Source of the DNA: an uncultured bacterium
GTDB lineage: Bacteria > Actinomycetota > Actinomycetes > S36-B12
Direction: 5' to 3'
DNA length: 39,302 nucleotides
Assembly: GCA_903850745.1 (NCBI GenBank)
Contig: CAINMH010000029.1
Location: 1-39,302 of the forward strand
The translations under genes were made by a program, and so were the position numbers. The stretch's first letter is position 1. Each line of letters begins with the position of its first letter. Below the pieces are notes generated by a model. That model did not search any database. It saw only the letters and a list, made by a program, of their open reading frames with translations, and was not told the origin of the DNA. Shown here in pieces: positions 14,866-17,143 of the stretch.

Positions 14866-15882
14866 TCATGCCACCAGATGACCGACAGCATCGGATGCTC
14901 CGTTTTCCCATGCGGCAGCAAGGCGATCTCGCCAAGCGGCCGCTCCCCCTTCGGGCAGGCGATCTCGGGCCTCGAGCAGGGCGTCCAGATCAGGTGCCAC
15001 CCGAACAACAGAAAGGACTCCATGCGAAGGGACCATCGGCCGGGAAATCACGTCGGCCTGGAGCAAGGCCCCGGTCCCGAGACCACATGCTCTTTCGGGG
15101 AGCAGGGCAGCGAGCGCAAGCCCCGCGCTGAGTCCAACAGCCGAGTCGAGACTGCCGCTCACCACCACATCGATCCCCACGCGCTCTACGAGTTCGAGGC
15201 ACCTACGCACTCCACCGAGCGGTGCCACTTTCATAATTGCTACGTCTACCCGTCCACGAAGGTCCTCCACCTTGTCCGACCAACGAATGGACTCATCGGC
15301 CGCAATCGCAATGTCGGTCTGCCGACGTACCTGCTCTAACTCAGCAAGTGACGCGCATGGTTGCTCGACGTATTCCAACCCATAGGCCGAAAGTCGCTTG
15401 AGCGACCTCACCGCGTCTTCCACCGTCCATGCCCCGTTGGCGTCGAGTCGAATCATGCCGACGCCTCGACCAGCAACGGAGTCCAGCGCGTCACGTACAG
15501 CGGCAACGCGTGCCTCGTCATCAAGGCGGGTCTGACCAGACTCTGCAACCTTGACCTTGATAGTCGTGCATCCCCGCTCGAGAACCGCCTCGCGAGTCAG
15601 CGCAGCAGCATCGTCCGCCGACACCGCCGGGATGATCGCGTTGACTAGAACCGATGTACGTAAAGGGTCGGGCCATGTGCCATATGAAGCCTCCACAGCT
15701 GCAGCAAGCCACCGAGCGCTCGCAGCGTCGCTGTAGTCAGGAAAAGGTGAGAACTCACCCCAACCACTCGGCCCACGTAACAGCAATCCTTCGCGCTGAG
15801 TAGTGCCACGGAATCGCCTTCGCAGAGGCAGCGCGAAAGGCACCGCTTCACGCAACAACGTCGCCAGAGCCGGATCTGTCAC
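14866..15882 (-). CDS. menC: o-Succinylbenzoate synthase
   Basis: Enolase-superfamily dehydratase that makes o-succinylbenzoate from the MenD/MenH product. In the 338-residue protein, Lys109 and Lys111 (KVK), the metal ligands Asp147 (DAN), Glu173 (EQP) and Asp196 (DES), and Lys218 (IMK) follow the family order. The frame is open much further upstream, across the menE start, but the GTG at 15882 leaves the normal 22 or so residues before RFRG, as in other actinobacterial MenC proteins. That GTG overlaps the stop of an 8-codon upstream ORF. A longer form from ATG 15954 cannot be excluded. Confidence 0.9.
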   Translation of the reverse strand: MTDPALATLLREAVPFALPLRRRFRGTTQREGLLLRGPSGWGEFSPFPDYSDAASARWLAAAVEASYGTWPDPLRTSVLVNAIIPAVSADDAAALTREAVLERGCTTIKVKVAESGQTRLDDEARVAAVRDALDSVAGRGVGMIRLDANGAWTVEDAVRSLKRLSAYGLEYVEQPCASLAELEQVRRQTDIAIAADESIRWSDKVEDLRGRVDVAIMKVAPLGGVRRCLELVERVGIDVVVSGSLDSAVGLSAGLALAALLPERACGLGTGALLQADVISRPMVPSHGVLSVVRVAPDLDALLEARDRLPEGGAAAWRDRLAAAWENGASDAVGHLVA

Positions 15883-15905
15883 GAGACTCGAACGCCGCTG
15901 TTCAT
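15879..15905 (-). CDS. Candidate 8-codon leader ORF coupled to menC
   Basis: An ATG at 15905 preceded by GAGGAG with a 5-nt spacer opens a frame of eight codons (MNSGVRVS). Its TGA overlaps the menC GTG as GTGA. The menC start has no ribosome-binding site of its own, so ribosomes ending the small ORF could re-start at menC. The encoded peptide shows no obvious attenuator codons. It could be a chance frame. Confidence 0.35.
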   Translation of the reverse strand: MNSGVRVS

Positions 15906-15939
15906 CGATACTCCTCAGACGCTTTACAGGTACGTCCCC

Positions 15940-15952
15940 TAACCTAGCTGTC
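15940..15952 (+). promoter_or_regulatory. Leaderless promoter of menE
   Basis: TAACCT (15940-15945) is followed by AGCTGTC (7 nt) and the menE ATG. No Shine-Dalgarno sequence is present, so the mRNA probably starts at the ATG. Confidence 0.5.
15941..15946 (-). promoter_or_regulatory. Candidate -10 box for menC-menD
   Basis: TAGGTT on the minus strand (15946-15941) would start transcription near 15934, giving a leader that contains the GAGGAG site and the small ORF before menC. It overlaps the opposing menE -10 box almost completely. Confidence 0.35.
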
Positions 15953-17143
15953 ATGACCACCCGCGCACTCGTGCGCATCCCCGTCGCTCCCGGACCGCGT
16001 GGCGTACAGGACCTCATCGCCGCGCTGCCCGAAGCCTTCGACGGCATTCCCATAGCGCCCGTACCGGTCACCTCTGTGACGGTGTCGGATACGTATGTCG
16101 CGCAGATTCTGCAGGCGATCCGACCCGAGATCGCCCTGGAGAGCGACGGTGTTGCTGTTGTTCTCACCACAAGCGGTTCTACCGGCTCGCCACGCGGGGT
16201 ATTGCTCAGCGCCACGGCTCTCGCTGCGTCGGCTCAGGGGGCCGCAGAACTCGTCGGGATACCGGTGGCGGAGAGTGCCTGGCTCGTCGCTATTCCAGTG
16301 ACCTCCGCAGGTGGCTTCGCAGTAGTTGTTCGATCATGGCTGGCCGAATTCGAGCCGGAGACACTTCCGTCCGTGGGCGGTGCGATGCCCTTCCGTACAG
16401 CGGACTTCGTCGCCAGCACCCGCCACCTCGCTCAACGTGCAAGCGGTCGAGCGCTCCTCACATCGCTCGTGCCCACTCAGTTGGCTCGAATCCTTGATGA
16501 TGTGGAGGGTCGATCGGTGCTCCGTGAGTATTCAGCCATTCTGGTGGGCGGGGCACGGTTTGATAGCACTATTCGAGAGCGGGCTCAGGAAGCCGGCGTC
16601 AATGTGTTGTCGACTTATGGACTCACTGAGACCTGCGGCGGCTGTGTCTACGACGGCAAGGCATTCCCAGGCGTCGATGTCCGCATTGCTCCCGATGGCG
16701 AAGTACTCGTGCAGGGAGACGTCGTGGGCCTCGGCTACCGCTTGGATCCTGCTCTAACTGCCCAACGCTTCATTGACGGATGGCTGCATACCGGTGACAT
16801 CGGATCGATAGAAGAAGGAACTCTCAGCATCGTGGGTCGTCGGGATGACATCGTCACCGTTAAGGGTGTCAACGTCGCTACGGGCGCCGTCGAACGCGTC
16901 ATCTGCGCGATTCCCGGAGTTGACGCATGCGCTGTCATCGCAACTCCGCATCCGATCGACGGTCACCGGCTCTCCGCCTTCATCGTTGCGCAACAGGATC
17001 TCGCAAGAACCATCACGGCCACCGTCGCTCAGCAGCTCGGACCCGTTGCTGCACCTTCGAGCATCTCGACGATAGCCTCGCTGCCGGTACTTCCAAACGG
17101 CAAGACAGACCGCGCAGCACTCGCAGCGCGGGCAAATGATTGA
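15953..17143 (+). CDS. menE: o-Succinylbenzoate-CoA ligase
   Basis: AMP-forming acyl-CoA ligase that activates o-succinylbenzoate for ring closure to the naphthoquinone. The 396 residues include the phosphate-binding loop TTSGSTGSPRGV (72-83), STYGLTETCGG, WLHTGDIG, the hinge GRRDDIVTVKGVN and the C-terminal lysine motif LPNGKTDR. The N-terminal domain is shorter than in general acyl-CoA synthetases, as is usual for actinobacterial MenE. The ATG at 15953 is supported by the promoter box 7 nt upstream; an in-frame extension to 15803 would lie over menC. menA follows after 12 nt. Confidence 0.93.
   Translation: MTTRALVRIPVAPGPRGVQDLIAALPEAFDGIPIAPVPVTSVTVSDTYVAQILQAIRPEIALESDGVAVVLTTSGSTGSPRGVLLSATALAASAQGAAELVGIPVAESAWLVAIPVTSAGGFAVVVRSWLAEFEPETLPSVGGAMPFRTADFVASTRHLAQRASGRALLTSLVPTQLARILDDVEGRSVLREYSAILVGGARFDSTIRERAQEAGVNVLSTYGLTETCGGCVYDGKAFPGVDVRIAPDGEVLVQGDVVGLGYRLDPALTAQRFIDGWLHTGDIGSIEEGTLSIVGRRDDIVTVKGVNVATGAVERVICAIPGVDACAVIATPHPIDGHRLSAFIVAQQDLARTITATVAQQLGPVAAPSSISTIASLPVLPNGKTDRAALAARAND

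Follow-up and report, generated by a model that had tools for sequence, protein, structure and literature searches.

Our analysis points to a mechanism in which an eight-codon open reading frame (ORF) just upstream of the menaquinone (vitamin K2) gene menC serves as a ribosome-loading leader for that gene, replacing menB and working by termination-reinitiation; we place this reading just on the probable side. In this model, a 30S subunit would bind the sequence GAGGAG and translate the eight leader codons, and the ribosome would terminate at the TGA inside a GTGA overlap and then restart at the overlapping menC GTG. The leader ORF would stand in for menB, which is absent upstream of menC in the window (i.e., the whole stretch of 39,302 nt from an uncultured actinomycete that was analyzed), with a divergent menB located elsewhere in the genome. 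We infer that the leader ORF is translated and that menC depends on it, and we posit that the loss of menB is the reason why the ORF emerged or has been retained. The kind of mechanism is already known; what is unusual is the recurrence of mini-ORFs where menB has been displaced, and no paper in the collection searched joins menB, menC, and translational coupling.

The leader ORF lies on the minus strand at 15879-15905, where the read across it and the menC start is gcgtctGAGGAGtatcgATGAACAGCGGCGTTCGAGTCTCGTGACAG; its codons are ATG AAC AGC GGC GTT CGA GTC TCG TGA (MNSGVRVS*). It has an initiation signal of its own, a putative Shine-Dalgarno (SD) sequence GAGGAG (15911-15916, minus strand) in which AGGAG is followed by a 5-nt spacer and the ATG at 15905-15903. 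The SD match is 5 nt long, with a predicted anti-SD duplex of -8.1 kcal/mol, and a sequence test for TANNNT 6 to 8 nt before this ATG found none, the SD being present instead. The TGA at 15881-15879 has its TG in common with the menC GTG at 15882-15880, such that the leader ORF stop overlaps the menC start by 4 nt, out of frame (GTGA, 15879-15882, minus strand). All of the leader ORF coordinates given in the initial annotation proved correct when the minus strand was reread. The gene menC itself (14866-15882, minus strand) encodes an o-succinylbenzoate synthase of 338 amino acids that matches NF002782 at 356 bits (cutoff, 288). Its GTG has an SD match of just 3 nt (anti-SD duplex, -4.3 kcal/mol) and no TANNNT 6 to 8 nt upstream; judged by these features, menC is without a strong SD and is not leaderless, which bears out the earlier claim that there is no ribosome-binding site at this GTG. 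The opening energy computed for the menC start is 13.7, versus 8.8 for the leader ORF start, and exceeds the upper quartile (13.1) for the window's long ORFs, measured at their first starts (n = 47).

The assignment of GTG 15882 as the MenC start is well supported by comparison with relatives, in agreement with the choice made in the initial annotation. The predicted N terminus aligns without gaps, over the first 100 columns, with the start codons and sequences of the MenC proteins of four relatives, which were picked for having a start codon at that position. The menC start aligned with GTG 15882 overlaps the menB stop in three of these four (L020, L022, and L006), and other relatives have candidate menC starts within a few residues of it.

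Why would menC be coupled to an upstream frame at all? We surveyed the order, where 152 genomes have a MenC match at E <= 1e-20; 140 genomes (141 loci, with G080 counted twice) were taken, and 12 (G016, G070, G041, G049, G128, G131, G132, G134, G148, G150, G160, and G163) were left out because the N terminus was missing, because the place was not listed, or for lack of room. With menB called in place when its match ends no more than 400 nt upstream of menC, it lies just upstream of menC at 126 of the 141 loci and is absent at 13, the other 2 having too little upstream sequence. Many relatives' menB genes (about 310 codons) end on menC as GTGA, ATGA, or TGATG, and the GTGA in the window thus takes the form of an old gene junction. 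A candidate menC start falls at -4 from the menB end at 31 of the in-place loci and at -1 at 5 (i.e., 36 of 126 have a junction of this form), counts that were taken from whichever candidate menC start is closest to the menB stop and so are biased toward overlaps. This likeness of junctions, together with the absence of menB from the window locus, supplies a reason for coupling. The gene menE, the divergent neighbor in the window (15953-17143, plus strand; best match NF005877, o-succinylbenzoate-CoA ligase, at 264.8 bits, below the curated cutoff of 345), is divergent beyond menB in nearly every checked in-place stretch that reaches that far. Where menB is absent, menE is directly divergent from menC at 12 of 13 loci and was not found at the remaining one, in G110. 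Many loci of the family have a menB that begins as TAGNNT, 6 to 7 nt, and ATGGAYACC and that looks leaderless.

A second MenB lineage seems to have taken the place of the operon copy, probably on several occasions. The "menB absent" label requires five changes on a MenC tree, at least four of them forced by well-supported branches; the tree has 37 rows (seven of only about 100 residues), is midpoint rooted with G035 placed unsurely, and allows the changes to be gains or losses. The MenB of the window genome (G000, contig 95, 18369-19193) has matches at E <= 1e-105 in 142 of 166 genomes of the order, with one match per genome listed. Ten of the 142 are at 74 to 100% identity, all in menB-absent genomes, and the other 132 are at 60 to 70%. 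Homologues of the divergent MenB occur in G113, G111, G115, G035, G056, G040, G110, G116, and G025, and G005, an eleventh menB-absent genome, has a partial copy; none was found in G001 and G034, genomes that are 90 to 91% complete. The alternative copies are 68 to 89% identical to one another and average 59 to 64% identity to 19 sampled operon copies, which average 80% among themselves; G056 was left out of this comparison, and its MenB identity comes from the order-wide search. We infer that menB was lost in the window lineage rather than never having been there.

What, then, lies ahead of menC where menB is absent? Small ORFs bearing a start signal (an SD match of at least 4 nt or a -10 element) overlap menC in four of the six menB-absent genera, or in three of six when menC starts are chosen blind, and at the positive loci the null expectation of an overlap that carries a signal, computed locus by locus, ranges from 0.02 to 0.19. 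Both genomes of g1 (the window species and its sibling) have the SD-led eight-codon ORF with GTGA. Both genomes of g6 are positive as well, with nine-codon ORFs (MDSCPVKQG in G025 and VDTHPICEL in G034) that begin 7 nt after TAAGTT/TAGGTT and overlap menC as TGATG. The single genome of g15 (G035) has MLRRTTSV, whose SD is 4 nt long and which overlaps menC by 8 nt. Four of the six g20 genomes are positive: G056, G040, and G115 have ORFs of 20 to 28 codons that start 6 nt after TANNNT and end in GTGA, and G113 has a longer frame ending in ATGA, for which the signal was scored only through the five-codon VSGLG with a 4-nt SD. G116 has the same peptide ending upstream of menC, and G111 has no mini-ORF overlapping menC. 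The blind choice of menC start showed no overlapping upstream ORF (uORF) in the four g20 positives; the overlap appears only at a start 24 nt downstream, favored with the uORF in view, and this part of the count is partly circular. There is no mini-ORF at menC in g5 (G005, locus L021); there, menC itself begins 6 nt after TACGTT and appears leaderless, which looks like a different answer to the same menB loss. The g24 locus (G110) has just frames with an 8-nt overlap, none with a start signal. As a side observation, the menC match of G025 (contig 64, 13143-14126) includes one in-frame TAG.

Could the mini-ORFs be remnants of menB? Eight of them were compared with 71 in-place menB starts, namely those whose opening codon at the MDTRTRY position is ATG or GTG, some genomes being represented twice. 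The G034 mini-ORF agrees with menB starts at 16 of 24 nt (P = 0.0015), and its upstream sequence agrees at 23 of 28, a score reached by 0 of 4,000 shuffles. For G025, the upstream agreement is 21 of 28 (0 of 4,000 shuffles) and that of the codons is 12 of 24 (P = 0.16); for G056, the mini-ORF agrees at 18 of 24 (0 of 4,000 shuffles). Likeness to menB is clear for loci L010 and L024 and, upstream, for L009, and no such likeness was seen for the mini-ORFs of G035, G040, and G115 (P = 0.41 to 0.66). The window mini-ORF as a menB relic is not supported: it agrees at 11 of 21 (P = 0.10; mean-score P = 0.03), with an upstream P of 0.97, and the sibling mini-ORF likewise agrees at 11 of 21 (P = 0.13; upstream P = 0.87). 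Recognizable menB beginnings thus appear to have turned into leaders in two lineages, and the window is not among them. We speculate, tentatively and with more doubt than conviction, that once a divergent menB had displaced the operon copy, a mini-ORF was retained or rebuilt independently in several lineages where menB formerly met menC, solely to supply menC with ribosomes, as a menB cut down to its first codons plus a stop in g6 and probably in G056 and as a rebuilt ORF with a new SD in the genus of the window.

The comparison within that genus covers two genomes, those of the window species and one sibling species. The sibling has an identical GAGGAG and keeps the ATG, the length of the ORF, and the GTGA, with identical spacing and no indel; the initial annotation had looked to relatives for conservation of the small ORF, and SD, frame, and overlap are all kept. 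The sibling peptide reads MNSDVRVP* versus MNSGVRVS* in the window (G4D and S8P), both substitutions are nonsynonymous, and the two peptides show neither a conserved sequence nor regulatory codon runs. The leader region as a whole is constrained at the sequence level: the two species are well separated, with differences at 95 of the 219 fourfold sites in menC, yet the menE-menC gap varies at 5 of 70 positions. The least diverged 150 nt of menC-menE (15856-16005) takes in menC codons 1 to 9, the leader ORF, the gap, and menE codons 1 to 17 and has 7 differences, where the median for a stretch of this length is 22 over the 2,271 nt compared between the two species. Between the same two species, third positions differ in 1 of the first 20 codons of menE versus 41% in the rest and in 4 of the first 20 codons of menC versus 38% in the rest, and some regulatory element may reach into the coding sequence of both genes. 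Judged from these alignments, the start, stop, and SD of the leader ORF are not demonstrably more conserved than the surrounding promoter letters; since the genus comparison has only two species, conservation of the uORF is inseparable from conservation of the whole leader.

A putative -10 element for the menC transcript, TAGGTT (15941-15946, minus strand), would place the transcript start near 15934, and TAGGTT is likewise found ahead of menB in several relatives that have menB in place. On the opposite strand, TAACCT (15940-15945) lies 7 nt before the menE ATG; each strand of TAGGTTA at 15940-15946 thus carries a TANNNT resembling a -10 element, the two being shifted by one base, as if a single symmetric site worked for both divergent genes. 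A consensus promoter scan of 15800-16050 returned no sigma-70-type promoter, no terminator-like site was found in the same interval, and a plasmid search gave no match. A possible hairpin that pairs leader ORF codons with early menC codons (15856-15900, minus strand) is predicted, weakly, in both species; the sole changed pair breaks, and the hairpin is not more stable than shuffles and shows no covariation. When the 90-nt leader was folded, 190 of 200 shuffles were at least as stable as the window sequence and 85 of 200 were at least as stable as the sibling sequence (z-scores, +1.45 and -0.03), and for 51-nt folds the counts were 176 and 114 of 200. These computed energies give no support to RNA unfolding as an alternative route of coupling. 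Inverted repeats in 15860-15990 amount to five 6-nt pairs, three of them palindromic. Termination-reinitiation had been proposed in the initial annotation as the simplest reading; the anatomy, the GTG start, the sibling ORF, and the menB context speak for it, RNA folding lends it no support, and the nonsynonymous nature of both substitutions speaks against it. Overall, the proposal is plausible, and the comparison with relatives strengthens it.

How often would such an arrangement arise by chance? When the 70-nt menE-menC gap was dinucleotide shuffled 20,000 times, any uORF ending in a 1- to 8-nt overlap was present in 28.7%, one with an SD match of at least 4 nt was present in 12.0%, one with an SD match of at least 5 nt was present in 3.6%, and one that also starts with ATG was present in 0.67%. 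The same genome was also sampled over 374,578 nt (the window and 20 further stretches) for mini-ORFs of 3 to 15 codons that have an SD match of at least 5 nt and overlap an NTG by 1 or 4 nt. They occur at 18 of 1,164 start-region NTGs and 58 of 5,437 interior NTGs, and those beginning with ATG occur at 6 (0.52%) and 21 (0.39%), respectively; no enrichment of SD-led mini-ORFs at gene starts is seen in these 375 kb. The presence of similar ORFs in shuffles and the lack of genomic enrichment make the geometry alone weak evidence. The arrangement is uncommon but not rare by chance, being unusual for one gene and within chance expectation across a window of dozens of genes, and the window alone proves little. 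Mini-ORFs in Nonomuraea (L074 to L128), such as MATGRTLAQGGS, end at the menC GTGA in some species only, at loci where menC, judged by eye, has its own GGAGGG-type site; they are a useful illustration of chance overlap.

These frequencies bear on the reading that the leader ORF is a chance frame, with menC starting directly at its GTG (through a weak signal, GAG and an accessible start) and the leader conserved for two promoters. We regard this as unlikely, yet as a contender to be taken seriously: similar ORFs arise in 0.4 to 0.7% (strict) to 12 to 29% (loose) of shuffles or interior codons, the Nonomuraea mini-ORFs come and go, and conservation spans the whole gap plus both gene starts. However, it would leave menC to a GTG that has the 3-nt SD match, lacks a -10 spaced for leaderless initiation, and costs more to open than the quartile value, and it does not account for the recurrence of mini-ORFs at menB-absent loci. 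Alternatively, MenC may start at ATG 15954 or elsewhere upstream, with the small ORF lying out of frame inside menC. This ATG has a 4-nt SD match (-6.2 kcal/mol), better than that of the GTG; the sibling retains both this ATG and its open frame, in which three of the five gap substitutions hit third codon positions. Nonetheless, we consider such a start improbable, given that it would lengthen the protein by 24 residues missing from the four aligned homologues (chosen for their start codon at the GTG position), that the ATG sits in the CATG of the menE start, and that a transcript driven by the putative -10 TAGGTT, which is downstream of this ATG, would not include it.

Two further readings grant the small frame a meaning other than constitutive ribosome loading. 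If it were a regulatory leader acting by stalling or attenuation, it would have a parallel in five g20 genomes in which a conserved (L/W)WC(A/Q)(F/L)VSGLG ends at or just before the menC start; however, the window peptide is not conserved and has no codon runs, and with no terminator-like site nearby and no Rfam family reaching its gathering score anywhere in the window, we think this very improbable. Because the sole good SD and menC are in different frames, one might also suppose that ATG 15905 was the true MenC start and that an indel, in nature or in the assembly, has shifted the frame. This idea we find scarcely credible and reject, as an independent sibling genome has identical spacing with no indel. 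We return to the leader ORF as a probable loader of ribosomes for menC.

Such a leader would have close counterparts elsewhere. In Mycobacterium tuberculosis, as described in a 2024 report, uPPE2 is an SD-led, out-of-frame uORF whose stop overlaps the SD-less start of PPE2, and PPE2 requires uPPE2, mainly by termination-reinitiation, under a B12 riboswitch (PMC11260477). The anatomy of that pair is the same as that of the leader ORF and menC, with the differences that no riboswitch or other Rfam family is found at gathering score in the window and that dependence on the uORF was shown for PPE2 (PMC11260477) and is putative for menC. Mycobacterial "coupled" RTGA small ORFs are, according to Shell et al. 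(2015), overrepresented, and as with the GTGA of menC, the TGA of the small ORF gives the last two letters of the next RTG (PMC4633059). Those ORFs were described on leaderless transcripts (PMC4633059), whereas the window ORF appears, from its sequence, to be SD led, and SD-led mini-ORFs are not enriched in the 375 kb sampled from the window genome. Huber et al. (2019) tested overlap-dependent coupling in 14 gene pairs (PMC6728339), and short ORFs that serve to "deliver" a ribosome are covered in a review (PMC12548453). The 4-nt overlap and the putative dependence of menC on upstream translation are features shared with such overlapping pairs (PMC6728339), the difference being that the upstream partner here has eight codons at the place held by a full gene in relatives. 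Operon genes often rely on an upstream neighbor for their ribosomes. If our reading is true, these loci form a natural series, from menB in place through menB pared to nine codons and other mini-ORFs to a leaderless menC, with which one can ask how does evolution respond when a coupling partner is lost? For annotators, it would mean that SD-less genes with NTGA overlaps may depend on ORFs far below the usual length cutoff.

The g20 leader peptides merit a separate remark. Those just upstream of menC at L199, L024, L220, L222, and L218 (G040, G056, G115, G113, and G116) combine the conserved end with a variable front, and the changes are mostly synonymous; judged from this pattern, the peptide may be a small protein that is conserved, or else a stalling leader. 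The DNA pattern for this end occurs in 5 of the 166 genomes of the order, once in each and always beside menC.
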